NCBI RefSeq assembly: GCF_003568865.1 | Contig: NZ_CP031115.1 | Coordinates: 1,426,001-1,490,000 of the forward strand | Reading direction: 5' to 3' | Length of the DNA stretch: 64,000 bases | DNA from: Rubrobacter indicoceani | GTDB taxonomy: Bacteria > Actinomycetota > Rubrobacteria > Rubrobacterales > Rubrobacteraceae | Shown: one piece after another, positions 8,687-64,000 of the stretch | How the letters are laid out: the number at the start of each line of letters is the position of its first letter | Position numbering within the stretch: the stretch's first letter is position 1 | Translations under genes and position numbers: made by a program | The notes under the pieces: generated by a model | What the model was told of the DNA's origin: nothing | The model's database searches: none | Seen by the model: the letters and a program-made list of their open reading frames with translations, nothing else

Positions 8687-9310
8687 GTGGCTGAGATCAC
8701 CCGCCTGAAAGAGAAGGCCGGGCGCGTCCGGGTCTATGCCGACGGCGAGTTCTACGCGGAGATAGACCTCGCCGTCGCGGAGGAGAGCGGGCTCGTCGAG
8801 GGCTTCGATATCTCCGAGAAGGCTCTCCGGGAGGTGTGTCGGGCCGGGGAGTACGCCCTGGCGATGCGTCGGGCTTTCAACCTGCTCTCGTACCGGGCGC
8901 GGTCCCGGGGGGAGATCCGGGACCGGCTCGCCTCAAAGCACGACCACAAGGCGGAGATCATAGACTCCGTGCTCGTCAGGCTCGAAGAACTCGGCTACCT
9001 CGACGACAAGGAGTTCGCCCGCTCCGTGGCCCGGCAGAAGGCCGGGAAATACGGTCCCAGGCGCATAGCCGCAGAGCTTCAGCGGGCCGGGGTCTCAAAA
9101 GAAACCGTCGGGGAGGTCGTGGAGGAAGAATTCTCCGGTCGGGACGAATTCGAAGAGGCTCGTAAGGCGGTTCACAGCCGCTATAATACGGAGGATGTCG
9201 GCGGCGGCGATGCGCTGGCACGGAAGGTCTACGGCTTTCTTGCAAGAAGGGGATACTCCCCGGAGGTCTGCGCCGAAATAGCCGGCGAGTACCGTACGGG
9301 GCAAGGCTAG
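8687..9310 (+). CDS. recX: RecX regulatory protein
   Basis: A 207-residue RecX, which caps and limits RecA filaments. Three-helix repeat units are recognisable (ALAMRRAFNLLSYRARSRGEIRDRLASK, VLVRLEELGYLDDKEFARSVARQK and KYGPRRIAAELQRAGVSKETV). The GTG start follows recA closely and co-transcription is likely. The N-terminal ~50 residues (ITRLKEKAGRVRVYADGEFYAEIDLAVAEE) are the typical leading segment. One ATAATAC heptamer lies inside the gene (9183-9189). Confidence 0.93.
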   Translation: MAEITRLKEKAGRVRVYADGEFYAEIDLAVAEESGLVEGFDISEKALREVCRAGEYALAMRRAFNLLSYRARSRGEIRDRLASKHDHKAEIIDSVLVRLEELGYLDDKEFARSVARQKAGKYGPRRIAAELQRAGVSKETVGEVVEEEFSGRDEFEEARKAVHSRYNTEDVGGGDALARKVYGFLARRGYSPEVCAEIAGEYRTGQG

Positions 9311-9448
9311 GGCGAACTCTAGATACTACAGAACTCTATCCAGAGCACACGTTGAGGGCAGTATCCTTCGCAGAACGCCGGGGGCTGTACTGACGGACAT
9401 CAGACGTGAGAGCGGGGGCGAGATCCCCGGTTTTCTGGAGGAGTTGAC

Positions 9449-10993
9449 ATGACGATCGTGTTTTTGGTACTCGGCCTCGTGGTGGGACTCGCCGTCGGGG
9501 CGGGGGTGGGTTTCACGCTGCTGAATTCCCGTGTGAGCCAGAGCCTCGAATCCTCTCGGGGCAGCGCGCAGGAGATCATCTCGGAGGCCAGCCGCAAGGC
9601 CGAGTCTTCGAGAAGGGAGTCCGAGATCGCGGCCCGTGAGGCGGCGATAAAGATAAAAGACGAGGCCGAGGCCGAAGCCCGCCAGAGGCGGGCCGAGATC
9701 TCCCGGATCGAGGAGCGCCTCGACAACCGCGATGCTGCGCTGGATCGCCGCGAGGGCGAGATAGAGAAGGTTCGCAGTCGCCTCGCTGCCGAAGAGGAGA
9801 AACTCAACAGGCGCGAACAGGCCCTTGCAGACCGGGAATCCGAGCAGCTGCGCGTACTGGAGGAGCTCTCGGGCTTGACAAAAACCGAGGCCGAGAACAG
9901 GCTGTTCTCCAACCTTGAACTGGAGCTTCAGGACAGGCTCGGGCGGATGGTCCGGGACCGGACGATGGAGGCCGAGGAGACGGCGGACCTCGAAGCGCGG
10001 AGGATCATCGCAACGAGCATGGAGCGGCTCGCCTCAGACCTCGCCTCGGAGTCTACGGTGAAGGCGGTCAGCCTCACATCGGACGACATGAAGGGGCGGA
10101 TCATAGGTCGTGAGGGGCGCAACATCCGGGCCTTCGAGGCGGCCACCGGGGTGGATGTGATCATCGACGACACGCCGGAGACGGTTGTTATCTCGTGCTT
10201 TGACCCGGTGCGGCGCGAGACGGCGAGGATCAGCATGGAGCGTCTGGTCCAGGACGGCCGGATACATCCGGGGCGCATCGAGCAGATCGTCGCAAAGGCG
10301 AAAAAGGAGGTCGAGAAGGAGATCAAATCCGCCGGGAGGCAGGCTCTTTTCGACGCGAAGATCTCGGGCGGTATGCACAATGACCTCCAGCGGCTCCTCG
10401 GCGCGCTCAAGTTCCGCACGTCTTACGGGCAGAATGTTCTTGCTCACTCGGTCGAGGTCGCCAACCTGGCCGGGATGATAGCTCAGGAACTCGGCGCGAA
10501 CGTGAAGCTCAGCCGCCGGGGCGCGCTTCTGCACGACGTCGGCAAGGCTATTGACCACGAGGTCGAGGGGACGCACGCCATGATCGGCGGTCGGTTTGCA
10601 AAGAAGAGCGGCGAGTCAGACGATATAGTCCGGGCGATTCAGGCGCACCACCACGAGATAGAGATGGAGACCGTAGAGGACGTTATCGTTGCGACCGCCG
10701 ACGCCGTCTCCGCTGCCCGGCCGGGGGCCAGACGCGAGACGACCGAGATCTACATCGAACGCCTCCGCGCTCTGGAGGACATCGCAACCGGACACCGGGG
10801 GGTGGACAAGGCGTACGCCATTCAAGCCGGGCGTGAGATCCGGGTGATGGTCCAGCCCTCCGAGGTGGACGACCGAATAGCGGCCAAGCTGGCCCTCGAT
10901 ATCTCCCGTCAGATAGAGACCGACCTTGAATACCCCGGCCAGATCAAGGTAACCGTTATCCGCGAGAGCCGCGTGAGCGAGGTCGCCAAGTAA
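9449..10993 (+). CDS. rny: Ribonuclease Y
   Basis: Membrane-anchored endoribonuclease that initiates mRNA decay (514 aa, normal length). The order is one N-terminal transmembrane helix (IVFLVLGLVVGLAVGAGVGF), a long charged coiled coil (residues ~30-190), a KH domain (MKGRIIGREGRNIRAFEAATG) and an HD phosphohydrolase domain with LLHDVGKAIDHE. The ATG at 9449 has a clear GGAGG ribosome site. The 138 bp between recX and rny hold no gene. They include a short G-C hairpin (CGGGG/CCCCG near 9414-9431) followed by TTTT, which could be a weak attenuator. Confidence 0.96.
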   Translation: MTIVFLVLGLVVGLAVGAGVGFTLLNSRVSQSLESSRGSAQEIISEASRKAESSRRESEIAAREAAIKIKDEAEAEARQRRAEISRIEERLDNRDAALDRREGEIEKVRSRLAAEEEKLNRREQALADRESEQLRVLEELSGLTKTEAENRLFSNLELELQDRLGRMVRDRTMEAEETADLEARRIIATSMERLASDLASESTVKAVSLTSDDMKGRIIGREGRNIRAFEAATGVDVIIDDTPETVVISCFDPVRRETARISMERLVQDGRIHPGRIEQIVAKAKKEVEKEIKSAGRQALFDAKISGGMHNDLQRLLGALKFRTSYGQNVLAHSVEVANLAGMIAQELGANVKLSRRGALLHDVGKAIDHEVEGTHAMIGGRFAKKSGESDDIVRAIQAHHHEIEMETVEDVIVATADAVSAARPGARRETTEIYIERLRALEDIATGHRGVDKAYAIQAGREIRVMVQPSEVDDRIAAKLALDISRQIETDLEYPGQIKVTVIRESRVSEVAK

Positions 10994-11052
10994 CCGACCT
11001 GACGGGATGATATGAATGAAAATCGACATCGTCGGCCCCTGTCCCCTGTAAT

Positions 11053-11997
11053 ATGGTCTTTCTTTTGACGGAGGGACCGTACCGCGATATCGGCGCGGGG
11101 CTTGTCCGGCTCTCGGGCCTCGAAGCCCCTCGCCGCGCCCCGTCGAACCTCCTGACCGTCGAGGACGTTCTTCTCGAACTCCTGAAAAACGCCCGCGACG
11201 CCGGAGCAACCGGGATCTACGTCGCCTCCTCCCTCCACGCCCGGCGCTACCGGACGCTCCTTGTCCTCGACAACGGCGAGGGCATCCCGGCCCAGCACAC
11301 CGAAACCATCTTCGAACCCGGAACGACCAGCCGCCACCTCTCCCGGACCTCCGGCTTCGCCCTGTACCACATAAAGAACCTGGCCCACCAGGCCACCGTC
11401 ACAAACCCCGCAAACCCGACCGCGATCAAAGCCACCCTCGATACCCGCCGGATCCCGGAAAGAACCCTCCAGTCGGCCTCCCGTACCTCGAAGTCAAACC
11501 TCCTCGCCACCGCTACCGACTTCGCCCGCCAGAACCAGAACCTCCGCCTTTACCTCGGAACCCAGTCCAATATCGTCTCAACCCTTCTAAAAAACAACAT
11601 AATACCTCAAAACCTCGCTTCCGGAGCCGATGGTCGGGGTGCTTCGGAGGTGTTCGAGTATGTTCGGGGGCTTGGCTTTGAGATATCGGCGAGGACCTTG
11701 AAGCGGGTTCTCTCGGGTGGCGGGGCGTTCGGTGAGCCGGGCCGTTCCCCGGCCCTCGACTCTGATACCCTGAAAGGCTACAGGCCGCCCCGGAAGGGTC
11801 GTAAGAAAGGCGAGGCCCCGGCACCGGTCCGGCGGGTCCTGCTGGGGGCCGGGGACAGAGCCGGAATAGAAGCCATAATCCGCGAAGCCGCAGCAGCAAA
11901 CTACCTCTCGGTCTCAGACGTGCGGTTTGAATACCGGGAGGGCGGCATCGCTATCACGGCAGATATCGCAGAGCCCGAAGAAGAGTACGATGAATAG
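11053..11997 (+). CDS. GHKL-fold (Bergerat) ATPase of unknown function
   Basis: A 314-residue protein with the ATP-binding fold shared by MutL, Hsp90 and histidine kinases. The N box is LLELLKNARDAGATGI, the G1 box is VLDNGEGIP, then GTTSRH and GFALYHIKNLA. There is no kinase H box or response partner, and no MutL endonuclease motif. The C-terminal half (from residue ~190) is unlike anything I recognise and includes a proline- and lysine-rich linker. It sits between rny and miaB, close upstream of miaB, suggesting a link to RNA or DNA metabolism, but the function is unknown. Strand composition flips mid-gene, at an ATAATAC heptamer at 11599. The start is uncertain: ATG 11053 has no ribosome site, and TTG 11065 is an alternative. 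Confidence 0.75.
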   Translation: MVFLLTEGPYRDIGAGLVRLSGLEAPRRAPSNLLTVEDVLLELLKNARDAGATGIYVASSLHARRYRTLLVLDNGEGIPAQHTETIFEPGTTSRHLSRTSGFALYHIKNLAHQATVTNPANPTAIKATLDTRRIPERTLQSASRTSKSNLLATATDFARQNQNLRLYLGTQSNIVSTLLKNNIIPQNLASGADGRGASEVFEYVRGLGFEISARTLKRVLSGGGAFGEPGRSPALDSDTLKGYRPPRKGRKKGEAPAPVRRVLLGAGDRAGIEAIIREAAAANYLSVSDVRFEYREGGIAITADIAEPEEEYDE

Positions 11998-12005
11998 AGG
12001 ATACA

Positions 12006-13460
12006 ATGAATAATACACACAGTATAAACAACACGAGCTTGAAAAAAGGTGCAAGACCGGGCCGGTCTTTTCCGGTCTTCCCTGCGGCGACCGGTGGTGG
12101 GGCGGCTGGGGAGGTAGTCTCCGGCGGTCCGGCCTCTGCGGTCAGGCTTGAAGGGGCCGGGAAGACCGCCTGCATCCGGACGTTCGGGTGTCAGATGAAC
12201 GTGCATGACTCGGACAGGATGCGTCGCATGGTCCTTGATGCCGGGTATGCCGAGGTCCAGGCCTACGAAGACGCCGACATCGTTGTTCTCAACACCTGCT
12301 ACGTCCGCGAAAACGCCGTAGACCGGGTCCGGGGACACCTCGGGGAGATAAACCGCCTCAAAAAAGAAGGCCGCGTCAAGAAAGTCGCCCTCACGGGCTG
12401 CGTCGGCGCCGCTGATGAAGCAGGGGAACTCCAGAAACAATTCAACGTGGACCTTGTATTGGGCACTCATAATACGTATGAGCTTGCGGAGTTCGTGGGG
12501 TTGCCGACTATGGCCGAGACCTACACGCCCGAGTTGCCGGGGACAGAGGGGGAGCATTCCGCCTTTGTCACTATAATGACCGGGTGCAACTACAAGTGCA
12601 GCTACTGTATCGTGCCAACGGTCCGGGGCAGGATGGTTTGCCGTCCGTTTGAGAACGTGGTCTCCGAGGTAGAGCGGCTGGTTGCCGGCGGGACAAAGTA
12701 CATAACCCTGCTCGGGCAGACCGTCGATGCGTGGCGGGGGGATGGCTTGAGGTTTTGTGATCTCCTCCTGCGGGTCTCTGAGGTTGCTCCGAGGGTCTCG
12801 TTCACGACAAGCCACCCGTCCAACATGGAGGATCGGACCCTGCGGCTTATAGGTGAGAGCGACACCATCGTCAAGAGGCTTCACCTGCCCGTACAGTCCG
12901 GGTCCGACAGGATGCTCGGGATCATGCACCGGGGCTACCGGTCCGAGCGTTACCGGCGGAAGATAGAGGTCTTTCGGGGGGCGGTCCCGGGCGGGACGCT
13001 CAGCACGGACCTGATAATCGGGCATCCCGGCGAGACCGAAGAGGACCATGAGGCGACGCTCTCGCTTGTTGAGGACTGCGCCTTTGACTCCGCGTACGTC
13101 TTCAAGTACTCGCCCCGGCGCGGAACTGAAGGGGCCCGGATGTTCGAGGCCGGCGAGGCGATACCCGAGAACGTTGTTCAGCGGCGCTTCTCCGAGGTGC
13201 TCGGGTCCATAGAGAAAAACGCCCTCGAGCGAAACCGGAGCAAGGTCGGCGGGGAGGAGGAGGTCTTTATCAGGCACGGGGTTTCGGATTCCGGACGGGT
13301 CATCGGCGAGACCTGGAGTGGACACGCCGTTTATCTCTCCTGTGATGCCGTCGCACCTCCGGCCCCGGGCGACTACGTCCGGGCCACCATCACCTCAGCC
13401 GGGCCGCACGCGCTCTACGCCAGCCAGAGAACCCTCCAGACAACAGAACCGGACCGTTGA
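12006..13460 (+). CDS. miaB: tRNA-2-methylthio-N6-dimethylallyladenosine synthase MiaB
   Basis: Radical-SAM methylthiotransferase acting on i6A37 of tRNA (484 aa). The UPF0004 domain carries the auxiliary-cluster cysteines (TFGCQMN at Cys62, NTCYVREN, TGCVG). The radical-SAM motif CNYKCSYC follows at about residues 194-201, and a C-terminal TRAM domain is present. About 50 residues precede the conserved core. They are low-complexity, so the true start could be further in, although ATG 12006 has a modest AGAGG site. miaB, miaA and hflX form one overlapping unit. Two ATAATAC heptamers fall at its very start (12010) and at 12469. Confidence 0.95.
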   Translation: MNNTHSINNTSLKKGARPGRSFPVFPAATGGGAAGEVVSGGPASAVRLEGAGKTACIRTFGCQMNVHDSDRMRRMVLDAGYAEVQAYEDADIVVLNTCYVRENAVDRVRGHLGEINRLKKEGRVKKVALTGCVGAADEAGELQKQFNVDLVLGTHNTYELAEFVGLPTMAETYTPELPGTEGEHSAFVTIMTGCNYKCSYCIVPTVRGRMVCRPFENVVSEVERLVAGGTKYITLLGQTVDAWRGDGLRFCDLLLRVSEVAPRVSFTTSHPSNMEDRTLRLIGESDTIVKRLHLPVQSGSDRMLGIMHRGYRSERYRRKIEVFRGAVPGGTLSTDLIIGHPGETEEDHEATLSLVEDCAFDSAYVFKYSPRRGTEGARMFEAGEAIPENVVQRRFSEVLGSIEKNALERNRSKVGGEEEVFIRHGVSDSGRVIGETWSGHAVYLSCDAVAPPAPGDYVRATITSAGPHALYASQRTLQTTEPDR

Positions 13461-14392
13461 GCGAGGACCCGAGGTGCCTCGTCGTCTACGGTCCGACCGC
13501 AAGCGGCAAGAGCGACCTGACAGATGCCCTTCACGACGCCGCCGGTGACTGCGAAAAAGAACCCGGCAGAAAGACCACCATCCTCTTTGACTCCATGCAG
13601 GTCTACCGGGAGATACCGAACCTCACAAACCAGCACCGCCGAAGGCCTGCGGAACTCTCCGGCATCGTCTCCGTACTGGACGAGTGGTCGGTTGCAAGGC
13701 ACAGAGCCGCCGCCGATTCCCTTTTCGCCGAGCACGAACACGAAAAAGCACAGATAATACTCGAGGCCGGCACGGGCCTGTACCTGAACGCCTTTCTTTT
13801 CGGGTTCCCGCTTGCGGAGCGGGTGCCGGAGTATATCCGCCGAGAGGCCGAGAGGCAGGTCTTTGAAGCGCAGAGACCGGCGGCCTTGAGCGGAGGCCGT
13901 CCCACCAATGCCCGGCGGGCGGTGAGGACGGAAGAGTTGAAGCTGGCCGGTCTGGAAGACGGCAGGGGCTCGGTCTGGGAGGGTGGGATGCGTGTCAGGG
14001 CTTCGGTCTTGTACCTGCGTCCCGATGACCGGAGTGCTCTTGACCGGAACATTGCCTCCCGCACGGGATCCATAGTCCAGAACGGCCTCGAAGAGGCGGC
14101 CCTGCTCTCGGGCTACCGGGAAGAAGCCGTCGGTAAATCAGTACTGGATGCCATCGGGGTGAGGGAGATGATCTCCGTCTTCGGGGGTGAGATCCCGGAA
14201 CACGAGGCCGAGAAAAGGATATCCGCCCGGACCCGGAGGCTTGCGCGAAGGCAGATAACCTGGTTCGATAAACTTACCAGAGCCCTCAAGGACAGCCCGA
14301 ACCTCCACTCCCTCTCGGTTGTTCATGACCCCGTAAACATAAAGCATAGTATTTCTAGGCTTGATGATATAATCCGTTGGTGGACGGAATAA
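13457..14392 (+). CDS. miaA: tRNA dimethylallyltransferase MiaA
   Basis: Adds the dimethylallyl group to A37 of tRNA, making the substrate of MiaB. Visible are the P-loop GPTASGKS, DSMQVYREIPNLTNQ (substrate-binding Asp and Tyr), and AGTGLYLNAFLFG. At 311 residues it is of normal length but divergent: the usual HLID segment reads SGIVSVLDEW, and the C-terminal zone is shortened. The start TTG overlaps the miaB stop as TTGA, the coupling also used by rluB. The ending overlaps hflX by 16 bp. Identity is firm; reduced conservation is notable. Confidence 0.92.
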   Translation: MSEDPRCLVVYGPTASGKSDLTDALHDAAGDCEKEPGRKTTILFDSMQVYREIPNLTNQHRRRPAELSGIVSVLDEWSVARHRAAADSLFAEHEHEKAQIILEAGTGLYLNAFLFGFPLAERVPEYIRREAERQVFEAQRPAALSGGRPTNARRAVRTEELKLAGLEDGRGSVWEGGMRVRASVLYLRPDDRSALDRNIASRTGSIVQNGLEEAALLSGYREEAVGKSVLDAIGVREMISVFGGEIPEHEAEKRISARTRRLARRQITWFDKLTRALKDSPNLHSLSVVHDPVNIKHSISRLDDIIRWWTE

Positions 14393-15909
14393 CGGGAAAG
14401 CGGGAAGACGGGGCTCTACCGGCTCTGGACGCTGGTTTACGGCGGGTGATACTGGTTGGTGCGGGTGAGGAGCGTTACACCGCCGAGCTTGGCCGTCTGG
14501 CGACTACGCTCGGGCTCGAGGTCGTGGGCGTGGTCGAGCAGAACCGCCGGGACAACACGGGCTACATCGGCCGGGGCAAGAGGCTCGAGCTCGCGGAGGA
14601 GATCCGGCGTGTCGAGGCCGGGATGGTGGTGACGGACGACGAGCTTACCGCTTCGCAGTCAAGGGTGCTCGAGGCAGACTGCGAAGCCCCAGTTATAGAC
14701 CGTACCGAACTCATAATACGAATCTTTCACGAACACGCCCGGGACGCGCCGAGCAAGCTGCAGGTAGAGCTTGCGGAACTCTCATACCTTCTACCGAGGA
14801 TCAGGGGTATGTGGCGTCACCTCGAGAGGCTTGGCGGCGGTTCGGCCGGTTCGGCCGGCTCTTCCGGGAGCAGCGCCGCCGGGGGTCGGGCCACAAGAGG
14901 ACCGGGCGAGCAGCAGCTCGAGTACGACCGGCGTCAGATCCGGACCCGCATGGAGCGTCTGAAGAAGCGCCTTGATGATGAGAGCGCGTCAAGACGGACG
15001 AGAAGAGCGAGGCTGAAGTCAAGCGAGATACCGAAGGTTGCCCTTGTCGGATATACAAACGCGGGAAAGACAACGGTCCTGAACGCCCTGAGCGGCGCCG
15101 ACCGCATCCCGAGGGACCGACTCTTCGAGACCCTTGAAACAACAACAAGAAAAGTAGAGGGCGAAGAAAGCGAGAACCCGTCAGGGAAAGCGGATCAAAG
15201 CCCCGGCCACAGCCTCAGCTACAGCCTCAGCTACAGCCTCAGCTACAGCCTCAGCTACAGCCTCAGCTACAGCCCCGGCTTCACCGTGACCGACACCGTC
15301 GGTTTTATAAGAAAGCTTCCGACCCAGCTTGTCGAGTCATTCTCCTCGACGCTAGAGGCCGCAGATGACGCCGACATACTAGTTATCTGCGCCGACGCTT
15401 CTAGCCCCGACCTCGAAGAGGAGATACAGACGGTGAAGAACACGCTGTCTCTGTCGGATCTGGCGGATGGAAACGGGAAGCTCCCCGGAAGAGACGGCCG
15501 GGGCGATGCTCTGAAACGCAGTAAAAGCAATAATACACAGGGCACGGGGGGCAGCAAGCCGGTGATCCTGCTGTTGAACAAGGGGGACCTCCTGACAGAG
15601 GATGAGATTTCGGAGCTTGGAAGGAGCTTTCCGGAGGGTCTTGTCTTGGATCACGGATCGGGGTACGGGGCATTGAAGGGCAGGATCTTTAATTGTATTT
15701 CAGAGATGCGCAACAGGATGAGGCTCCTGATACCTCACGGTGACTATTCGGAGGTTACGAGGCTCTACGGTCTTGCAACGATACACGAGCGGGTAGAGTC
15801 CGAGGCAGGGGTGATTCTTGACGTGAGCCTTCCGGAGGAGGTAACGAAAGAGTACGAGCGGTACCTTTTCGCTTACGACGGGGAGCCACCGGAGAACAAC
15901 TCCCGGTGA
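14377..15909 (+). CDS. hflX: GTPase HflX with expanded low-complexity insertions
   Basis: Ribosome-associated GTPase (510 aa, longer than the usual ~420-440). The N-terminal HflX domain (TLGLEVVGVVEQNR, YIGRGK, VLEADCEAPVIDRTELIIRIF) and G domain are present, with G1 GYTNAGKT, G3 DTVGFIRKLP and G4 NKGD. Three insertions stand out. A Ser/Gly/Ala run splits the glycine-rich LGGG...TRGPGE loop. Five perfect SLSY repeats (residues ~279-298) lie between switch I and G3. A ~25-residue polar segment precedes G4. All catalytic motifs survive. TTG 14377 overlaps miaA; GTG 14380 is an alternative. Confidence 0.93.
   Translation: MVDGITGKREDGALPALDAGLRRVILVGAGEERYTAELGRLATTLGLEVVGVVEQNRRDNTGYIGRGKRLELAEEIRRVEAGMVVTDDELTASQSRVLEADCEAPVIDRTELIIRIFHEHARDAPSKLQVELAELSYLLPRIRGMWRHLERLGGGSAGSAGSSGSSAAGGRATRGPGEQQLEYDRRQIRTRMERLKKRLDDESASRRTRRARLKSSEIPKVALVGYTNAGKTTVLNALSGADRIPRDRLFETLETTTRKVEGEESENPSGKADQSPGHSLSYSLSYSLSYSLSYSLSYSPGFTVTDTVGFIRKLPTQLVESFSSTLEAADDADILVICADASSPDLEEEIQTVKNTLSLSDLADGNGKLPGRDGRGDALKRSKSNNTQGTGGSKPVILLLNKGDLLTEDEISELGRSFPEGLVLDHGSGYGALKGRIFNCISEMRNRMRLLIPHGDYSEVTRLYGLATIHERVESEAGVILDVSLPEEVTKEYERYLFAYDGEPPENNSR
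15211..15270 (+). repeat. 12-bp minisatellite inside hflX (5 perfect copies)
   Basis: The unit AGCCTCAGCTAC is repeated five times without a mismatch and encodes Ser-Leu-Ser-Tyr each time. Because the unit is a multiple of 3, copy-number change keeps the frame. It lies between switch I and the G3 motif of the GTPase domain. Confidence 0.97.
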
Positions 15910-16745: not shown

Positions 16746-16777
16746 CGGTTTCCGATAAGTACGATTCTCGGAAACCG
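16746..16777. other. dif-like inverted repeat beside the Xer gene (candidate recombination site)
   Basis: CGGTTTCCGA (16746-16755) and TCGGAAACCG (16768-16777) are perfect inverted arms. Read as a Xer site, 11-bp arms GTTTCCGATAA (16748-16758) and TTCTCGGAAAC (16765-16775) match at 10 of 11 positions around a 6-bp centre GTACGA. It lies in the 71-bp gap where all genes converge, 7 bp beyond the stop of a tyrosine recombinase. No T-tract follows on either strand, which argues against a plain terminator. The right arm lacks the canonical TTATGT of XerD sites. Confidence 0.45.
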
Positions 16778-16783
16778 GACGGT

Positions 16784-17713
16784 TCAGTTTATCGGCAGCG
16801 TATTGTATCTGTGGGCTTTGCTGGCCAGTTCCTCCGCGCGTCTTATGTACCTCATAGTGGTCTTCGGGTCGCGGTGTCCTAGAAACTGCTGGATCACGAT
16901 CAGGGGCGCCTCGTTTACGGCCATGTTGGTTCCGACGGTGTGTCTTATGGAGTGCGGGGAGATTTGCTTGGTTATTCCGGCTCGCTCGGCGTATTTCTTT
17001 ATTATGTACCGGACCGATCTCGTAGTCAGGGGCCTGCAGTTGCCTTCCCGGGACTGAAAGAGGGGTCGCTTCATATCAGACTGTGAGGCGAAGCTCATGC
17101 CGCACCTGAGAACGAAGTTCTGAACAAGGGTCCAGAGTTCGGGTGAAACGGAGACGTTTCGGACCCTCTCGCCCTTACCGACCACCCTGAGGCTCAGGGT
17201 CTCTGCACCGTCGCTGTCCGCACCCATATCCCTGAAGTCCCCGACGACGACCCCGACTACCTCGGCCTCCCGAAGCCCGCAGGAGGCCATCAGGGCGATC
17301 ATCACATAGTCCCGGTAGTTCGACGTTCTCGCGGCAGAGAGCATCCTTGATAGCTCATCATCGGTCAGTACGTTGTAGGAGGAATCCTGCTCGACCTTCG
17401 GACTCCTTGCAAAAAACCGGATCGCCTCCGGGTTTACCCGCGTGAAACCGCCCATAAAGGTAAAGGTCAGGAAACGCCTCAGGGCCGCAAGCTTTTTTGC
17501 AACCGTAGCTCGGGAATACAGACCCATTATCCGCTCCCTGTAGATGCTGATGTCCTCGGCCGTCAGGGATCCCAGATCCTCCTTCCCGAGACGTTCCTCC
17601 ATAAAACACACGAACATCTTTAGTTCGGTATTATACGTTTTCTTTGTCTGAGGGCTGGTGAGGGTTCTGAGGTAGGTCTCTATAAGGCTTTCGGTTGTGG
17701 GTCGGGTGGTCAC
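16784..17713 (-). CDS. Tyrosine recombinase, Xer family
   Basis: A 309-residue site-specific recombinase. An N-terminal SAM-like core-binding domain (LIETYLRTLTSPQTKKTYNTEL) precedes the catalytic domain with all active residues: Arg148 (CGLREAE), Lys180, His254 and Arg257 (HSIRHT), His280 (FLGHRD) and Tyr289 (TMRYI). Length and architecture fit XerC/XerD or a single-protein Xer rather than a phage integrase, and there is no tRNA or prophage nearby. The GTG start has a weak ribosome site. It ends the rsiG-FHA-ftsR-apt gene row. The dif-like repeat directly downstream suggests its target; this is inference. Confidence 0.88.
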   Translation of the reverse strand: MTTRPTTESLIETYLRTLTSPQTKKTYNTELKMFVCFMEERLGKEDLGSLTAEDISIYRERIMGLYSRATVAKKLAALRRFLTFTFMGGFTRVNPEAIRFFARSPKVEQDSSYNVLTDDELSRMLSAARTSNYRDYVMIALMASCGLREAEVVGVVVGDFRDMGADSDGAETLSLRVVGKGERVRNVSVSPELWTLVQNFVLRCGMSFASQSDMKRPLFQSREGNCRPLTTRSVRYIIKKYAERAGITKQISPHSIRHTVGTNMAVNEAPLIVIQQFLGHRDPKTTMRYIRRAEELASKAHRYNTLPIN

Positions 17714-19184: not shown

Positions 19185-19197
19185 TTTGTGTATTATG

Positions 19198-21466: not shown

Positions 21467-22119
21467 GATCCCCCACCCCCGTCATCGTCAGGTTCGTAGA
21501 TCCTCTTCATCATAAGGCCCGAAGCCTCCCCGTAGGCCGCCCGGCCTCTCGTAGTATTATCTGGATATATCGGCTCTCCGATGCGGGCCGAGAATTTCTT
21601 GCCCCGGAGCCTCTCAAGAGGAGACGGTATCTCCCCGATAAAGACCGGAAGGACCGGCGCCCCGGACCTTGCAGCGAGCATTATAGCCCCGTTTTTGGCC
21701 CCCGAGTCCTCACCGGCTGACTGGCTTCGGTGGCGCTCGGCTTTTCTTCTGCGCGTCCCTTCGGGGAAGATGCCGAGCGCCCAGCCGTCTTCCAGGTAGC
21801 GCAGGGCCGCCCGCAGAGCGCCCCGCCCCCCGCCCTGGCGGTCAACCGGAAACGCTCCGAGAAGGCCGAAGAGGCCCACGAGCGGTTTCAGGAAAAGTTC
21901 TTTCTTCGCCATCCACTGAACCCTTCTCGGCACCGCCATGCACACAAAGACCGGATCGAAGAAGCGCCAGTGATTCGAGGCAACGACAACGGGACCGCTC
22001 CTCGGGACGCGGTCTTCACCCCGAACTTCGAAACCAAGCAAGACGCGCCCGGCAAGGATGACGGCGGCCCGGACAAGGGCGTACCGGCGCGACATGCCGC
22101 TCTCGTCAAGCCTCGGCAT
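21463..22119 (-). CDS. 1-acyl-glycerol-3-phosphate acyltransferase (PlsC family)
   Basis: Phospholipid-synthesis acyltransferase (218 aa). The catalytic HX4D motif is in SNHWRFFDPVF, the substrate motif in FPEGTRRR, with an N-terminal hydrophobic segment (YALVRAAVILAGRVLLGFEV). The gene is inserted between cmk and der, and cmk-plsC-der is a common actinobacterial and clostridial order. The stop-start overlap with der is 4 bp. One heptamer (GTATTAT, 21554-21560) lies in its 3' third. Confidence 0.92.
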   Translation of the reverse strand: MPRLDESGMSRRYALVRAAVILAGRVLLGFEVRGEDRVPRSGPVVVASNHWRFFDPVFVCMAVPRRVQWMAKKELFLKPLVGLFGLLGAFPVDRQGGGRGALRAALRYLEDGWALGIFPEGTRRRKAERHRSQSAGEDSGAKNGAIMLAARSGAPVLPVFIGEIPSPLERLRGKKFSARIGEPIYPDNTTRGRAAYGEASGLMMKRIYEPDDDGGGGS

Positions 22120-22851: not shown

Positions 22852-24204
22852 CTACCCCCCCAGAAAACGGAGCCGCTCGAAAAAGTCCGGCAGCGTCTTT
22901 GTAACGCAGGACGGGTTCCTGATCCGAACGCCCCCGACAAGAAGCCCCACCAGCGAAAAAGCCATCGCAACCCGGTGATCGTCATAAGTCTCTATCGCCG
23001 CCGGAACGATCTCCTTAACGGACTTTACGGGTATTATGAGTAGACCATCGCGAGATTCGCGGGTCTGGACGCCGAGGCGTCCGAGCTCTGTGGCGACGGC
23101 GGTTATCCGGTCGGTCTCCTGGTGGCGGGTGTGTTCTATGTTGGTTATGGAGGTCGGGGAGGATGCAAAGGGCGCGATGGCGGCGAGGGTGAGGAAGGTG
23201 TCGGAGATCTCGTTCATATCCACCTCGACGCCGGAGAGCTTTTCGTTCTGTGGTCCCCGGACTTCGGTGTAACCCGCTCCGTATTCGACCTCGCAGCCCA
23301 TAAGGCGAAGAACCTCGACGAAACGGAGGTCGCCCTGGGAGGAGGACCGGTCGAGCCCCTCGACCCTGACCCTTCCTCCGGTGAGGGCCGCGGCGGCAAA
23401 GAAGTACGACGCCCCGGAGGCGTCCGGTTCTACGGGGAACTCGGTAGCGGTGTAGGTCCGGGGGCTGATGCGGTAGACGCCGGAGCCGTCCTCGGAGACC
23501 GCAACCCCGAAGGCGGACATCACCTCGCGGGTGATATCTATGTAGGGCTTCGAGACAAGGTCTCCCGCAACGCGCAGCGTAACCGGGTTTCTGGCGCAGG
23601 GCGAGCCGAGCATGACCCCGCTAAGAAACTGGCTGCTCCTGCCGCTCCGGACGCGGGCCTCTCCGCCCTCGAGCCCGCCGCCGCGGACCACGAGCGGGAA
23701 GCGCCCCTCCCGGTCGGCGTAGTCTATCTTTGCCCCCAGAGCGCGCAGGGCCTCGACAAGGTCCGAGATCGGACGTTCGCGCATCCTCGGCACCCCGTCA
23801 ACCCGATAGGGTCCGGCCCCGAGCGCGAGCGCGGAGGGCAGAAAGCGGGCGGCGGTCCCGGCGTTCCCGACAAAGACCTCCACGTCCCTGTTCGGTATCT
23901 CCCCGCCCCGCCCGACTATCCGCACGTCGCCGTCCTCGACAGAGACCTCGAAGCCGAGGTCCGAGAGAGCCTTCATAAGCCAGAAGGAATCGTCCGACAG
24001 AAGCGGGTTTCCGAGCCCGGACTCACCATTCGCCAGAGCGCAGCAGATCATAGCCCTGTTCGTTACAGATTTCGACCCCGGAACCCGCAAGACCGCATCC
24101 ACCGGACAGACGAGCGGCTCTATAAGAACCTCAGCCGGGAAATCTCCCCTCACCTCCCGAACCCCGAAATCCCGCCCCGGGACGCCCCGGACTCTAGCGG
24201 TCAT
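22852..24204 (-). CDS. aroA: 3-phosphoshikimate 1-carboxyvinyltransferase (EPSP synthase)
   Basis: Sixth step of the shikimate pathway (450 aa). Signatures: VPGSKSVTNRAMI (shikimate-3-phosphate site), GNAGTAARFLPS (the glyphosate-contact loop), and TYDDHRVAMAFSL near the C-terminus. The start ATG 24204 overlaps the 3' end of rluB by 11 bp. The other shikimate genes in the window (aroQ, aroB, aroK, aroC) are 16 kb away, so aroA is in a separate operon. Two ATAATAC heptamers flank its two ends (23031, and 24364 in rluB). Confidence 0.97.
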   Translation of the reverse strand: MTARVRGVPGRDFGVREVRGDFPAEVLIEPLVCPVDAVLRVPGSKSVTNRAMICCALANGESGLGNPLLSDDSFWLMKALSDLGFEVSVEDGDVRIVGRGGEIPNRDVEVFVGNAGTAARFLPSALALGAGPYRVDGVPRMRERPISDLVEALRALGAKIDYADREGRFPLVVRGGGLEGGEARVRSGRSSQFLSGVMLGSPCARNPVTLRVAGDLVSKPYIDITREVMSAFGVAVSEDGSGVYRISPRTYTATEFPVEPDASGASYFFAAAALTGGRVRVEGLDRSSSQGDLRFVEVLRLMGCEVEYGAGYTEVRGPQNEKLSGVEVDMNEISDTFLTLAAIAPFASSPTSITNIEHTRHQETDRITAVATELGRLGVQTRESRDGLLIIPVKSVKEIVPAAIETYDDHRVAMAFSLVGLLVGGVRIRNPSCVTKTLPDFFERLRFLGG

Positions 24205-24928
24205 CCCCTCTGCCCCCTCCGGAACCCCGCCCGTAAAACCCGCCGACCTCCTCGCCCGAAAGCTCCCTGATCGCCCCCGGGGCAAGCCCCGCAAGGGATA
24301 CCCCCCCGACCCGGACCCGCGACAGAGAGACGAGCCGGAGGCCGACGGCGGCACAGGCCCTTCGTATTATGCGGTTTTTTCCTTCGTGGATGGTCATCGA
24401 GATCTCAAGGTTCCTTCCCTTTCTGCGGGGTCTGGTCGTCTGAGGCGGGAGCATCGGGCCGTCATCGAGGTCGGGTCCCCGGGCGAGGGCTTCGAGCGCG
24501 CCGTCGGGGAACTGCGGGTCTATGAGCAGTCGGTATTCCTTCTCGACCTCGGAGGAGGGATGGGCGACGAGGTTGGCGAAGTCGCCGTCGTTGGTCAGGA
24601 GGATCAGACCCGTAGTCCCGGCGTCGAGCCTGCCGACGGGGATGAGGCCGGGGACGCCTTTCGGCATGAGGTCCGAAACGGTCGGACGCCCGAAGTCGTC
24701 CTTCATGGTCGTCAGGTATCCCTCGGGCTTGTTCAGCGCGAGGTAGACCTGTGAGCGCTGCGGTCTCACCGGGCGTCCGTCAAGAAAGACCCGGTCGCCC
24801 GGTGAAACCTTCGCCCCGAGATCGGCGACCGACCCGTTTACCGCGACGCGACCGGAGATTATAAGCGCCTCGGCCTTTCTTCTCGACGGCGCGGCCCCCG
24901 CCCGGGCAAGGTACGCCTGTAGCCTCAA
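24194..24928 (-). CDS. rluB: 23S rRNA pseudouridine synthase, RluB type
   Basis: Makes pseudouridine in helix 89-90 of 23S rRNA (244 aa). An N-terminal S4 domain (LRLQAYLARAGAAPSRRKAEALI) precedes the catalytic domain with GRLDAGTTGLILLTNDGD, whose Asp is the nucleophile, and GKNRIIRRACAAVG. TTG 24928 is chosen: it overlaps the scpB stop as TTGA, is preceded by GGGGGA, and gives the family N-terminus. The frame stays open far upstream only because it runs antisense-like through scpB and its repeats. Confidence 0.92.
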   Translation of the reverse strand: MRLQAYLARAGAAPSRRKAEALIISGRVAVNGSVADLGAKVSPGDRVFLDGRPVRPQRSQVYLALNKPEGYLTTMKDDFGRPTVSDLMPKGVPGLIPVGRLDAGTTGLILLTNDGDFANLVAHPSSEVEKEYRLLIDPQFPDGALEALARGPDLDDGPMLPPQTTRPRRKGRNLEISMTIHEGKNRIIRRACAAVGLRLVSLSRVRVGGVSLAGLAPGAIRELSGEEVGGFYGRGSGGGRGDDR

Positions 24929-25596
24929 CCCGGTCCCCCGGTTTCGGAAGGTCCGGTTTCGGAAGGTCCGGTTTCGGAAGGTCCGGTTTCGGCGTTGACC
25001 CGTTCGCGGACGCGGGCGAGTTCTTCCTCGGATACAAGGGACCGAAGGGGCGGGAAGTCGTCCGAGTCCGGGGCTCCGGAGGCGATAAAGAAGTCCTCCG
25101 TAACGTTCAGGAGCGCGGGTGCGAGGGGTGACTCCGATTCTCTGCCGGTTTCGGCGAGCAGGTTGCGTTCCAGAAGGCCCCGCACCACCGCGTCCGAGTT
25201 GACCCCCCGGACCCGGGAGACCCCGCCGCGGGAGACCGGCCCGAGGTATAGAACACACGAGAGGACTTCGAGGGCCGCGGCGGAGAGCGGGGAGGGACGG
25301 GCCTCGCCCCGGTAGTTTTCGATCACGGGGGCGAGCCGGACCTTTGTCGCGAGCTGCAGTCCGCCGGCGACCTCTCTGAGGACGAGGCCGCTCTCGGGCG
25401 ACTCGCAGCGGGTGCGGAGGGCGGAGATACCGGACTCCAGCCTCTCGGCGGTAAGCTCCGTAAGCGCGGCGAGCTCGCGACGACTCACCGGACGACCGCT
25501 GACAAAGAGCACGGCCTCTACGACCGCGGAGGCCGGGGGTGCGTCGGTCGTTTCGGGGGACGGTACCGGACCGTCGTTCTCGGGCGACCGGTTCAA
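24925..25596 (-). CDS. scpB: Segregation and condensation protein B
   Basis: Kleisin-associated winged-helix subunit of the SMC-ScpAB condensin (223 aa). The core (VVEAVLFVSGRPVSRRELAALT, LQLATKVRLAPVIENYRG, ALEVLSCVLYLGPVSRGGVSRVRGV) is typical, and SSVLxxL-like contacts are lost in a shortened second half. The C-terminus ends in ETGPS repeats encoded by a 15-bp minisatellite. It overlaps scpA by 4 bp (ATGA) and rluB by TTGA. The scpA-scpB-rluB-cmk-der order matches other actinobacteria. Confidence 0.95.
   Translation of the reverse strand: MNRSPENDGPVPSPETTDAPPASAVVEAVLFVSGRPVSRRELAALTELTAERLESGISALRTRCESPESGLVLREVAGGLQLATKVRLAPVIENYRGEARPSPLSAAALEVLSCVLYLGPVSRGGVSRVRGVNSDAVVRGLLERNLLAETGRESESPLAPALLNVTEDFFIASGAPDSDDFPPLRSLVSEEELARVRERVNAETGPSETGPSETGPSETGGPG
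24940..24992 (-). repeat. 15-bp minisatellite in the 3' end of scpB
   Basis: Three perfect copies of GGTTTCGGAAGGTCC (24940-24954, 24955-24969, 24970-24984) plus 8 bp of a fourth. They encode Glu-Thr-Gly-Pro-Ser repeats at the ScpB tail, directly before the coupled rluB start. Confidence 0.96.
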
Positions 25597-26348
25597 GTGA
25601 GCAGCTCCAGCGTCAGGGGGCCGAGTGGTTCGCTCTGAGAGAGAGAGACGGCCCCCTCGTTTGCAAGCGAGAGCGCGGCGGCAAAGGCCACGGCCACGTG
25701 CAGGCGGTCCATCTCACGGGTGATCTCCTCAAAGGAAACCGGCCCAGAGCCGCCGAGGGAGGTGCGTATCAGGGCTGCAAGCTCCTGCACGGTCACGGTG
25801 ATCTCCCCGAGGTGGGAGACGGTCGGTTCTTCAAGCCGGGAGAAAAGCCGTCTCGCCGCGAGGTCGAGCTTCCTGCGGTCGAGCTTCAGCCACCCGGGCC
25901 TCGGGCGCAGCTCGTGTCCGGTCGTCAGGTGGCCGGAGTTCTCCTCAAGGCGCACCCGCAGGACCTCGGCCCCGCGCTTTACCCGCAGGTAGAGCGCAAG
26001 CCGCCCGGCGAGCTCCTCCGGCTCTATCGGCTCGTCCTCCTCGCCCGGCTCCGGCTCGAAAAGCGGCAACAGCGTCCGACTCTTGAGAAGCACGAGCGAA
26101 GAGGCCGAACTGGCGAACTCCGCGTCGCGCTCAAGGGCGTTCGTCGCCGCAGTGTCCCGGGAGCTCAGGTAGAGGTCAATAAGCTCCTTCAGCGGAACCT
26201 CGAAGATCTCCACTTCGTCCTTCAATATAAGCGCAAGAAGCCACTCGTATGGACCTGAATATACGTCCAGTTCCACCGTGAACTCCGAGAGCGGCCGGCC
26301 TTCGGGGAAGGGTCCGCTTTCGGGGAGGGGTCCGCTTTCGGGGGTCAT
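25593..26348 (-). CDS. scpA: Segregation and condensation protein A (kleisin)
   Basis: Kleisin subunit of condensin (251 aa). The N-terminal SMC-binding segment is FTVELDVYSGPYEWLLALILKDEVEIFEVPLKELIDLYL, and the C-terminal winged helix includes FEEITREMDRLHVAVAFAAALSLANEG. The first ~20 residues are a Pro-Glu-Ser-Gly repeat (PESGPLPESGPFPEG) encoded by a short 18-bp-like duplication, not part of the family. It overlaps ald and scpB by 4 bp each. Confidence 0.95.
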   Translation of the reverse strand: MTPESGPLPESGPFPEGRPLSEFTVELDVYSGPYEWLLALILKDEVEIFEVPLKELIDLYLSSRDTAATNALERDAEFASSASSLVLLKSRTLLPLFEPEPGEEDEPIEPEELAGRLALYLRVKRGAEVLRVRLEENSGHLTTGHELRPRPGWLKLDRRKLDLAARRLFSRLEEPTVSHLGEITVTVQELAALIRTSLGGSGPVSFEEITREMDRLHVAVAFAAALSLANEGAVSLSQSEPLGPLTLELLT

Positions 26349-30808: not shown

Positions 30809-31595
30809 CGCGCACCCGCCCCCATAGATCCAGCCACCTTAAAACTCCAACCTCCTGTATTAAACGGGATATCGAGGAAAACTCCGCAACCAGCGTCAAC
30901 GAGACTACCAGAAGCCCCGCAACTATCCACACCGCACCCGGCCCGACCGATAGAACGAGAAGCCCGACAGCCGAACCGCAGGCCGCCGCTCCGGCATCCC
31001 CGAGCATGATACGCCCTCTGACGTCGAAATAAAACAGGGCGCATATTCCCCCGACAAGCCCCGATAAGGCAGACGCAGCCCACCCCGGAGCGGCGAACAG
31101 CACGACGAGCGCCGGCAGCAGGGTGAACTTTATCGCCCTTCCGGGCCGTACGTCGAAGAGGTTCCCGAGGTTCGCCCAGCCCGCGAGCAGAAAAGCCCCG
31201 ACAAGCGCCGAAACCCCGACCCCGAAGACCCACACCCCGACAAGGAGCGCGCCCCCGCCGAAGGCGAGTATCTTTACCAGCCCGGTGGTCAGCCGCCTGG
31301 CCAGAAGCGCCCCGACGTGCCCCCGAAAACCCCGCGCTCCGCCGTCTCCCCAGACGTCGTCCACAAACCCGACCACCACCGCAAGCAGCAGATACGATGA
31401 AAACACAAAGAAATCCCCGCCGGTGCCGGAGAAAAGCGTCAGGAGTATTATCGGCAGCAGCACAGCGCCCGCTGCGGTCGGGATCTGTTTGCCGGTGAAG
31501 TTGGGTTGCGTCGGTAGGAACTTTCCGGCGGGGGCGAGGGCCAGAAGGGTTACGGCTGCGCCGATCAGGAAGAGAAGCGGCGCGTTCACGGCCAC
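30801..31595 (-). CDS. MraY/WecA-like phosphosugar-prenyl-phosphate transferase
   Basis: A polytopic membrane protein (264 aa, about eight hydrophobic segments) of the polyprenyl-phosphate N-acetylhexosamine-1-phosphate transferase superfamily. The Asp-rich motif [11 protein letters not shown], the [12 protein letters not shown] segment and [12 protein letters not shown] correspond to the three conserved loops. It is shorter than MraY (~320-360 aa) and lacks the HHH-containing fifth loop in recognisable form, so the substrate is open. It overlaps the GT2 gene by 10 bp and pyrG by 8 bp. A role in making a lipid-linked envelope glycan is inferred. Confidence 0.82.
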
Positions 31596-33104: not shown

Positions 33105-34265
33105 CTAGATCCCGAGGAGCAGCCGGAGCCTGATCGCAAGTAAGTTAAAGATATCGGCCATCTGCTCGGAAGAATACACGACCGCCGATACCGCGGTCAG
33201 CCCCGCCGCTACAAGCGCAATGAGCAGGACCGGCGAAACCCTTGTCGGGTAGAGCTTTGACACCCCCTTGGCGTCCACGAGCCTCGGCCCGACTTTCAGC
33301 CGGGTCAGAAAGGTCGAAGACGCCCCGCGCCGCCCCTTGTCGAGAAACTCGACGAGCCCGACGTGCGTCCCGACGGCGACTATCAGCTCCGCCCCGCACT
33401 GCTCGGCGATGAGTATCGCGATATCCTCCGAAAGCCCCGGCGCTCGCAGGGTCGGGACGTTTTTTATCCCGGCTCTGCCGAGCGGCTCCAACCCCGGCGC
33501 GCCGCCGTTCGGGTAGGCGTGTACCAGCACGCTCCTCGCCTCCCGCATCCCGCGCTCCGAGACGGAGTCCATGTCCCCGAAGAGCAGGTCCGGTCTGCAG
33601 CCGACCTCAAGAAGCGCGTCGGCCCCGCCGTCCACGGCGATGACAAACGGCCTCTCACCCCGGATATACGGCCTGAGGGCGATGAGATCCTGCCGGTAGT
33701 CGTAGCCGCGAACCACGATAAGAACCTGCCTGCCCCGTACCCTCCGCGCTATCTCCTGCGGAACGTCGAAGGTCGAGAACAGCAGATCCCGCTCGACGTG
33801 CATGAACTCGACGGTGTTCTTTGCAAAGCTCTCGAGCGCGGCCCCGACGGCCTCCCGACTCTCCCGGAGCCGCCGCTCGGCCGTCTCCTCATCGAGATGC
33901 TCCCCCCGCGCAACAAACCGCCCGCCCCTGTACAGAGAGTCCCCCCGAAGCTCCACCTCATCACCGTCCCGAACCCCCTCAAACGCCGCCTCCCCAACCC
34001 GGTCCAGTATGTAAACCCCCGCCCGGGCCAGTATAAAAGGCCCGAGGTTCGGATAGGTCCCCGTCGCGGACCCCGCCGCGTTCACAACCGCCCGAACCCC
34101 CGAGTCGACCAGCGTCTCAGCCGTTACCCGATCAAGGTTCTCGTGATGTATTATGGGTATAGTTTCCTCGGAGAGCCGGGCGACGATGTCTTTTGTCTTG
34201 CGTCCGAGAACGGCTCGTCCGGTGAGGTTCATCCCGTTGGGCGGGCTGTTTTCCCCGTTTCTCAC
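33105..34265 (-). CDS. steA: SteA-like cytokinetic protein
   Basis: A 386-residue protein with a large cytoplasmic domain resembling thiamin pyrophosphokinase folds (VIAVDGGADALLEVGCRPDLLFGDMDSVSE) and a C-terminal membrane helix (VSPVLLIALVAAGLTAVSAVVY). This matches SteA, which with SteB supports septum splitting in corynebacteria. The gene overlaps recN by 4 bp, in the order recN-steA-steB as in M. tuberculosis. A heptamer (34148-34154) sits in its 5' region, coding for part of PIIHHE. Confidence 0.85.
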   Translation of the reverse strand: MRNGENSPPNGMNLTGRAVLGRKTKDIVARLSEETIPIIHHENLDRVTAETLVDSGVRAVVNAAGSATGTYPNLGPFILARAGVYILDRVGEAAFEGVRDGDEVELRGDSLYRGGRFVARGEHLDEETAERRLRESREAVGAALESFAKNTVEFMHVERDLLFSTFDVPQEIARRVRGRQVLIVVRGYDYRQDLIALRPYIRGERPFVIAVDGGADALLEVGCRPDLLFGDMDSVSERGMREARSVLVHAYPNGGAPGLEPLGRAGIKNVPTLRAPGLSEDIAILIAEQCGAELIVAVGTHVGLVEFLDKGRRGASSTFLTRLKVGPRLVDAKGVSKLYPTRVSPVLLIALVAAGLTAVSAVVYSSEQMADIFNLLAIRLRLLLGI

Positions 34266-58978: not shown

Positions 58979-59015
58979 AAGTGAAAACCCGCAGGCGACG
59001 TGGAAATCTTGAAAG

Positions 59016-62694: not shown

Positions 62695-62733
62695 AACAGT
62701 AACGTACAGGCACTTCAAGTAAAAAGGAGAAAG

Positions 62734-62997
62734 ATGCCCAAGTACATTCTAGTCAGGACGGTCGGAGAAGTCTCCGAAAAAGAGATCGAAGCCGCCGCAG
62801 TAAGATCTCTGGCAACTCTGGACGAGATGACGGGGGTGCGCTGGATCCGCTCTTATTACTCTGCCGAGGAGGGCAAACTCTACTGCGAGTATGAAGCCCC
62901 CAGCGTAGACCTCGTCTACGAACACGCCCGAAAAGCACAGCTCCCCCTCGACCACTGCTCAGTGGTCAGGGAACTCGAACCCGCCATGTTCAGATAA
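62734..62997 (+). CDS. Small DUF4242-like protein (SCO4226 nickel-binding type)
   Basis: An 87-residue alpha/beta protein: MPKYILVRTVGEVSEKEIEAAA, VRWIRSYYSAEEGKLYCEYEAPSVDLVYEHARKA, LPLDHCSVVRELEPA. This matches the DUF4242 family, whose Streptomyces member SCO4226 binds nickel through its His and Cys residues. ATG has an AAAGGAG site. It follows the regulator after 39 bp and is probably co-transcribed. With DUF1326/DUF2182 it makes metals a recurring theme in the block. Confidence 0.8.
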   Translation: MPKYILVRTVGEVSEKEIEAAAVRSLATLDEMTGVRWIRSYYSAEEGKLYCEYEAPSVDLVYEHARKAQLPLDHCSVVRELEPAMFR

Positions 62998-63025
62998 CCC
63001 GGACCTGCTTTGTCCATACTAACGG

Positions 63026-63063
63026 CTTTTGTAGTGGCGCAGCATGCTGCGCCACTACAAAGG
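63026..63063. other. 34-bp perfect palindrome between convergent genes
   Basis: 63028-63061 reads the same on both strands: 17-bp arms TTTGTAGTGGCGCAGCA and TGCTGCGCCACTACAAA with no loop, extended to 63026/63063 by a G-T wobble and a C-G pair. It ends the accessory block, between the DUF4242-like gene and pyrD. T-run left and A-run right is the wrong order for an intrinsic terminator, so it may be a mobile-element end or a cruciform. Confidence 0.75.
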
Positions 63064-63127
63064 CTCACCGCGCAACTCTGCGAATATGGGTCGCTCCGCT
63101 ATAGAGAATCGCAGACAGAACCCCCGG

Positions 63128-64000
63128 CTACGCGCTCCGCAGTTCCCCCGTCAACTGGGCAGCCGTAAGCCCGACCTGCTGTAAATACCCCGCAAACTCG
63201 GTAAGCATCTTCTCCGGCTCCCGCACGAAACTGGCCGTCCCGACCTGTACCGCCGTAGCCCCCGCGAGCATGAACTCCACGACATCTTCCCCGCTTGCTA
63301 CCCCGCCGCTCGCCACGACCGGAACGTCCACTGCGCCCGCTACTTCGTACACAGCCCGCAGCGCAACGGGCTTTATGGCCGGTCCCGAAAGCCCGCCCCG
63401 AACAAGCTTCTTTCTTGAATTCACGTCTACCGTGAGCGCCGGGATCGTGTTTATCGCCGTTACCGCGTCCGCTCCCGCTTTCTCGGCTGCAACCGCGTTG
63501 GCGACCACGCCCTCAAAGGTGAGCTTGACGATAAGCGGCTTCTTCGTCGTCTCCCGGGCCGCCGCAACGACCCCTTCGACGCTCCCCGGTCCGGCACAGA
63601 ACGTCAGCCCCCCGTGCTCGACGTTCGGACACGACAGGTTCATCTCGATGGCCGATACTCGCTCATCCGCCGCTACGCGATCGACGATCTCCCGGAACTC
63701 CTCCACCGTGTCCCCCGCCACCGAGACAAAGAGCGGCACTCCAACGTCGTAGTCACCCAGATGCGCCATAAACTCCTCGACCCCCGGGTTCTGAAGCCCG
63801 ATGGAGTTGACCATCCCGCCATATGTCTCCGCGATGCGCGGCGTCGGGTTCCCGTCACGCGCCCTCGGAGTGGTCGTCTTCGGGAGGATCGCCCCGTAAA
63901 CCCCCCCGACCTCAACGAGCGATTCCTTGGACATCGTTCCCGATGCGGGTATTATGGGATTCTTCAGGGTCAGGCCACAGAGTTCGACCCGGGTATCTGC
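63128..64000 (-). CDS. pyrD: Dihydroorotate dehydrogenase, class 1B (5' end cut off)
   Basis: Pyrimidine synthesis, dihydroorotate to orotate. The frame runs to the right edge of the window; the start is outside. LCGLTLKNPIIPASGTM, YGAILPKTTTPRARDGNPTPR, SIGLQNPG, and MNLSCPNVEHGG with the class-1B catalytic Cys (class 2 has Ser) identify it, so a PyrK electron-transfer partner is expected next door. ATG 63934 is internal. A heptamer at 63949-63955 encodes part of NPIIPA. Confidence 0.95.
   Translation of the reverse strand, partial: ADTRVELCGLTLKNPIIPASGTMSKESLVEVGGVYGAILPKTTTPRARDGNPTPRIAETYGGMVNSIGLQNPGVEEFMAHLGDYDVGVPLFVSVAGDTVEEFREIVDRVAADERVSAIEMNLSCPNVEHGGLTFCAGPGSVEGVVAAARETTKKPLIVKLTFEGVVANAVAAEKAGADAVTAINTIPALTVDVNSRKKLVRGGLSGPAIKPVALRAVYEVAGAVDVPVVASGGVASGEDVVEFMLAGATAVQVGTASFVREPEKMLTEFAGYLQQVGLTAAQLTGELRSA

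Follow-up and report, generated by a model that had tools for sequence, protein, structure and literature searches.

A polar ATAATAC mark pointing at dif around the replication terminus of Rubrobacteraceae

ATAATAC copies and gene neighbourhood around dif

The stretch of DNA analysed here (the window) comprises 64,000 nucleotides of Rubrobacter indicoceani, bases 1,426,001-1,490,000 of a 2,856,967-base contig, and holds 15 exact copies of the heptamer ATAATAC, all with the coordinates and strands reported in an initial annotation made from the sequence. The seven plus-strand copies end at 15536 and the eight minus-strand copies start at 17628; as first noted, the opposite orientation is absent from each half, with no exception on either side of 16.76 kb. 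The polarity flips at a candidate dif site (16746-16777, plus strand), which has inverted arms separated by a 6-bp spacer (CGGTTTCCGATAA-GTACGA-TTCTCGGAAACCG) and at which all 15 copies point. We have called this inverted repeat a putative dif because of its form, its place and the neighbouring xer gene, which encodes a Xer-type tyrosine recombinase (P0001; 16784-17713, minus strand), adjoins the repeat and is conserved in the family. The contig begins with what reads, by eye, as a dnaA gene, and the switch therefore lies opposite the origin. The GC skew of the window's genome also changes sign at the switch.

On the left of dif, the plus-strand copies lie in recX (9183-9189), in a gene for a GHKL-type ATPase (11599-11605), at the start of miaB (12010-12016) and in its conserved His-Asn-Thr codons (12469-12475), in miaA (13754-13760) and twice in hflX (14713-14719 and 15530-15536, the latter being the innermost left site). 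On the right, the innermost minus-strand copy falls on the conserved Tyr-Asn-Thr codons of xer (17628-17634). It is followed by an intergenic copy between FHA and MerR-type genes (19190-19196), by copies in a plsC-type acyltransferase gene (21554-21560), in aroA (23031-23037) and in an rluB-type gene (24364-24370), and by three copies further out (31445-31451, 34148-34154 and 63949-63955). The copies starting at 12469, 14713, 17628, 23031, 24364, 34148 and 63949 have the longer decamer form CNYATAATAC (N, any base; Y, C or T) described below. The wider context includes the gene for an FtsK translocase with a gamma domain (4347-6803, plus strand), 10-12 kb from dif, and scpB and scpA, which encode the partners of SMC (24925-26348, minus strand), 8-10 kb from dif.

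Dinucleotide shuffles of the window (n = 100) gave a mean of 0.77 ATAATAC copies and a maximum of 3, against the 15 observed. Synonymous shuffles (n = 2000) of open reading frames (ORFs) called greedily by a script gave a mean of 1.34 and a maximum of 6, against 12 sense copies; of the remaining three copies, two are antisense to ORFs that are probably wrong-frame script calls and one lies outside the script ORFs. ATAAT lacking a following AC, which had been put at about ten occurrences, was found 26 times on both strands. The motif had also been described as a coding-strand feature, which is not the right reference: polarity relative to the centre is kept both by the site lying between genes at 19190 and by the plasmid sites presented below. 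The coding-strand appearance is a by-product, since most genes near dif run toward dif.

The genome to which the window belongs has 37 ATAATAC copies, 32 of them on the chromosome (17 plus, 15 minus), three on the smaller contig C2 and two on C3, and every one of the 32 chromosomal copies points at dif. The strong enrichment initially described thus holds for the window and is lost genome-wide, where the reversed control reaches 44 copies; ATAATAC is concentrated and oriented around one point rather than enriched throughout. The two tests set beforehand in the initial annotation, a codon-preserving shuffle and a search for genome-wide strand or replichore bias, were both run, and the polar signal survived them. 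The annotation's suggestion of a polar chromosome signal is supported, with a switch between replichores. Its suggestion of a Chi-like or uptake motif is not, because such words are expected to be spread over the genome, and no ATAATAC was found in 480 kb sampled far from dif.

Polarity and full form of the site in the family

Throughout Rubrobacteraceae, ATAATAC genuinely marks the replication terminus in a polar manner. We have located it in six complete chromosomes (G000, which is the window's genome, G001, G008, G019, G020 from R. tropicus and G023 from R. marinus), where the copies at most 300 kb from dif comprise 113 inward and 0 outward ones, and those beyond 300 kb comprise 41 inward and 12 outward ones. 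The density of sites falls from 3-5 per 10 kb inside 3 kb of dif to 0.06 at 100-300 kb, and declines approximately as 1/distance between 3 and 100 kb. A genome of the same genus carries 10 plus copies followed by 11 minus copies on its chromosome, and three smaller contigs bear one convergent pair apiece. A second collection of loci, of which at least four overlap genomes already used, gave 112 inward copies out of 115 in the 19 of 29 loci that hold a dif (the ten loci without dif were left uncounted). Seven further stretches with dif, partly counted elsewhere, gave 61 inward and 0 outward copies; two more contigs held no dif. Sites of relatives at the same codon are not independent, and counts over genomes therefore overstate the number of events.

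To compare the switch point with dif, a pattern was derived from the window together with four relatives. Allowing one mismatch at most, it was present in the switch interval of all ten terminus loci holding both flanks (the window, L052, L053, L054, L055, L057, L066, L067, L068 and L033), six of which are independent of the building of the pattern. Two genomes (G002 and G014) have xer at a distance of 13-14 kb from dif, and there the switch in polarity coincides with dif, not with xer. The family has two dif types, a near-palindromic T1, to which the window belongs, and a T2 with a different left arm. Being palindromic, the T1 dif may need only one recombinase.

Among 105 permutations of the heptamer, only ATAATAC and the overlapping CATAATA combine at least 20 copies near dif with absence from the far sample. 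When the heptamers with at least eight inward copies near dif in the window's genome were ordered by enrichment over far sequence, ATAATAC ranked first, far above the next unrelated heptamer. Its single-mismatch variants were mostly unbiased in 34 stretches, and non-exact matches found by a cross-trained matrix scan were hardly or not at all polar at scores of 7-12 and leaned mildly inward at low scores. We have also observed an enrichment of GAGATAG near dif, mostly in the inward orientation (71 in, 13 out; 100 kb on each side), perhaps via Glu-Ile codons.

The full form is an asymmetric site, in which an A/T-rich 5' part and C-N-[CT] precede ATAATAC. Near dif, C occupies position -3 in 66 of 87 sites, A or C position -4 in 78 and C or T position -1 in 71, and A/T is preferred further upstream. 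Beyond 300 kb from dif the C-N-Y flank is present in none of 53 copies, and all 12 outward copies there have G or A at -1. The six complete genomes contain CNYATAATAC in 85 places, three on plasmids and 82 on the chromosomes; these 82 are all inward and at most 157 kb away from dif, and no decamer occurs elsewhere on the six chromosomes. The outermost decamers delimit a site-rich zone of about 140-280 kb. The window's chromosome carries 13 decamers, again only near dif, although the decamer form is not universal there (10 of the 24 sites within about 100 kb). Markov models of the 480 kb of far sequence from the window's genome predict 3.2-5.5 decamers per 2.5 Mb, an expectation that is lower for the GC-richer relatives; since decamers are predicted and yet absent away from dif, the absence is itself a signal. 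All 39 family genomes contain the decamer, in 8-24 copies each and above the reversed control in 37, the draft genomes among them being counted for copy number only. In other families, 20 of 40 genomes have it, and 15 of these 20 have more of the reversed control.

Selection on the DNA rather than on the protein is visible at two conserved sites, where wobble codons are held against codon bias. The Tyr-Asn-Thr codons of xer read TAT-AAT-AC in 32 of 33 genes, whereas the other Asn codons of these genes are AAT in 21 of 255 cases; the His-Asn-Thr site of miaB is kept in 17 of 18 genes, with AAT in 16 of 189 other Asn codons (two of 35 xer genes and one of 19 miaB genes, not showing the stretch, were left out). 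In both genes the same codons carry the site across genera. Sites also recur in recX (14 sites; 19 loci have the gene), the gene for the GHKL-type ATPase (24 in 22), plsC (11 in 29), aroA (14 in 21) and rluB (16 in 19); in these counts some genomes are represented by loci from two sources. That codon use, base composition or gene orientation creates the pattern is, in our view, next to impossible. Gene-assigned sites do all lie on the coding strand, except two in der, as such an origin would have it; against it stand the intergenic and plasmid sites and the absence far from dif. Codon use as the cause was ruled out by the synonymous shuffle and the wobble conservation, and local composition by the heptamer permutations.

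Convergent pairs on plasmids

Smaller contigs are present in four of the complete genomes, seven in total (C2 and C3 of G000, C1-C3 of G001, C2 of G020 and C2 of G023), and each carries a convergent pair of ATAATAC sites. Plasmid 1 of R. radiotolerans has one too, at the same locus as G001 C3, and two draft contigs (G016 C323 and G014 C19) were chosen because of their pair. The two sites are spaced by 102-345 bp and lie at or just downstream of the end of an RPA/TrfA-type rep gene. On G000 C2 and C3 one site of the pair falls within rep itself, no more than ~300 bp from its end; the R. marinus plasmid has a GGDEF gene of about 850 bp between rep and the pair. The upstream flanks of plasmid sites are mostly A/T-rich. 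Extra sites occur on the R. marinus and R. tropicus plasmids, and G000 C2 has a third, lone site that lacks the flank.

Iterons of 22 or 23 bp were found upstream of rep in the six plasmids checked. The interval between the paired sites is pyrimidine-rich on the rep-sense strand in nine of nine cases measured, eight of them distinct (L049, L050, L051, L059, L009, L010, L206, L207 and L208). The strict dif pattern was not found on the whole contigs G000 C2 and C3, G001 C1 and G016 C323, which were the plasmids scanned, nor was a dif with at most four mismatches found in six pieces around plasmid pairs. We have followed skew on seven plasmids by GC skew and by a leading-strand classifier trained on the window's genome (0.79 cross-validated accuracy). 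Near the pair, a divergent skew was seen in G001 C1 and C2; in G020 C2 both sides are strongly positive, and the other four plasmids are ambiguous.

Proposed reader and function of the mark

The polar terminus mark is, with high probability, read by a protein, and the polarity implies that this reader is probably directional. Likewise, the full form is confined to the terminus and missing elsewhere, and is therefore probably harmful elsewhere. As the best explanation (probability about 0.4), we propose that the mark is a one-way sign at which a DNA motor coming from the origin, most likely SMC-ScpAB, would be stopped or unloaded. A sequence-specific DNA-binding protein of Rubrobacteraceae would read the sites and act one way on the motor arriving from the origin; SMC-ScpAB would be stopped or unloaded stepwise over many leaky sites, and dif would thereby be left clear for dimer resolution. 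Such a system would be the directional analogue of matS/MatP and of the XerD sites of B. subtilis. On plasmids, the convergent pair would act likewise beside rep. The more general statement, that a family-specific protein reads one-way sites which are full only around dif, acts on a dif-bound motor and is used by plasmids via a convergent pair, appears to us reasonably probable, while the choice of SMC over another motor is tentative.

There is a precedent for sites whose density increases toward dif and at which SMC complexes are shed or excluded (PMC10945525, PMC12322038, PMC8242196): matS density is described as rising to dif, with a graded effect on MukBEF (PMC10945525), and unloading of SMC by XerD is cited in all three articles. 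By analogy, matS and XerD unloading would fit the confinement and the density of the ATAATAC sites, and KOPS (FtsK-orienting polar sequences) would fit their polarity. The likeness to matS and MatP lies in the terminus confinement, with all decamers within 157 kb, and in the density rising toward dif.

Several observations weigh against the proposed stop or unloading sign. The site is asymmetric and polar, whereas matS is palindromic, and no MatP was found over the cut-off (0 of 25). The searches pointed to no protein as the reader, whose binding to the sites is a proposal. The mechanism does not account for the placement of the plasmid pair beside rep. None of the 12 outward far copies carries the full flank, though a purely one-way unloader would tolerate wrong-way copies. 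In R. tropicus, the far copies are 17 inward versus 1 outward, though none has the full flank. The second collection has its three outward copies close to dif, in two loci; the base at -1 is A in two of them and T in the third, which is 44 bp from dif. Among the variants, ATAATAG (14 in, 1 out) and ATAATCC (17 in, 5 out) lean inward and ATTATAC leans outward (3 in, 19 out); ATAATAG shows no terminus enrichment (7 far, 7 near).

Ranking the possible functions, we would place the stop or unloading of SMC first, guidance of FtsK second and a fork trap third. If the sites were the KOPS or SRS (SpoIIIE recognition sequences) of the family, they would turn FtsK toward dif at the septum. As an exact, short leading-strand word that points at dif and becomes denser and more biased toward the terminus, ATAATAC resembles KOPS, SRS and AIMS (architecture imparting sequences), the lack of any wrong-way copy within 300 kb of dif in the six genomes agrees with it, and ftsK and xer are close to dif. 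However, ATAATAC is A/T-rich and has few copies, its full form is confined to ~160 kb around dif, and it forms convergent pairs on plasmids, with no dif turning up on those scanned. The leading-strand bias rises toward the terminus as it does for AIMS and KOPS, but the 32 heptamers and 13 decamers of the window's chromosome fall short of the AIMS copy number, given for E. coli as an octamer in at least 96 copies over the whole chromosome (PMC5993296). E. coli KOPS are described as equally dense outside the FtsK-active region (PMC3140498), whereas the full decamer is absent outside. The gamma domain appears ordinary: all 15 family genomes tested have it, and sister families, for which 14 of 16 outgroup rows were readable, share the class of its recognition helix, GYSRAGRIIDALE. 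Another word, the G-rich octamer GGGGCGGG, makes a more KOPS-like candidate for FtsK, being strongly skewed toward dif on the window's chromosome (78 in, 6 out within 210 kb on each side). Altogether, we consider guidance of FtsK unlikely.

Polar barriers of the Tus-Ter or RTP-Ter kind, which forks enter but do not leave, would match the polarity and the terminus position, although such sites in E. coli and B. subtilis are fewer and less dense than ATAATAC. No match to Tus was over the cut-off in 31 genomes, nor was any to RTP (four matches were below it). A trap would not be harmed by inward copies far from dif, but none of the copies there has the full form. With two ter sites close to its origin, plasmid R1 (PMC10331603) offers a parallel, and fork traps would thus fit the convergent pair beside rep; they would not fit the skew in G001 C1, G001 C2 and G020 C2, from which forks seem to cross the pair in the direction that a trap would block. 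We regard a fork trap as improbable. Autoregulation of the tus or rtp kind was also considered and rejected: in the window, just one intergenic site (19190) precedes a regulator gene, of MerR type, and a like site was found only in L164.

An Xer recombinase could instead bind the word as a lone half of dif. In B. subtilis, the XerD sites (XDS) at which SMC is unloaded lie at the terminus, as the ATAATAC sites do, and match a Xer half-site of dif. Here, the common form CGCATAATAC shares CGCATAA with one dif arm in most T2 genomes, but the T1 arm, including that of the window, is mismatched: it has G at -1 and T at -4, and the motif disfavours both bases. The flank of the motif is alike for both dif types and, in contrast to the B. 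subtilis sites as described, does not covary with the dif arm; the comparison of flank and dif type thus gave the half-site no support, and we hold it to be very improbable.

A literature search, whose coverage mostly excludes subscription journals, found the word ATAATAC in no paper. Searches combining Rubrobacter with dif, FtsK, replication terminus, KOPS or xerC had nothing on such a mark among the matches listed, and Rubrobacter is absent from the main text of the AIMS article (PMC5993296). To our knowledge, outside the two fork traps no earlier bacterial terminus mark is both terminus-restricted like matS and directional like KOPS; the ATAATAC mark, if its reading is true, would be the first. 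It is visible from sequence alone, its polarity is near-absolute, and it is short enough for affinity capture of the reader, with the plasmid pairs (sites about 100-340 bp apart) as a minimal test piece. Terminus marks in other clades could be sought in the same way, as words restricted to the surroundings of dif and always oriented toward it.

Concerning the neighbourhood, ftsK, recA, recX, xer, dif, scpB and scpA are clustered within ~12.5 kb of dif (4347-26348). The gene for the GHKL-type ATPase (11053-11997) sits between rny and miaB, and hflX contains a short tandem repeat, seen by eye at about 15208-15275.

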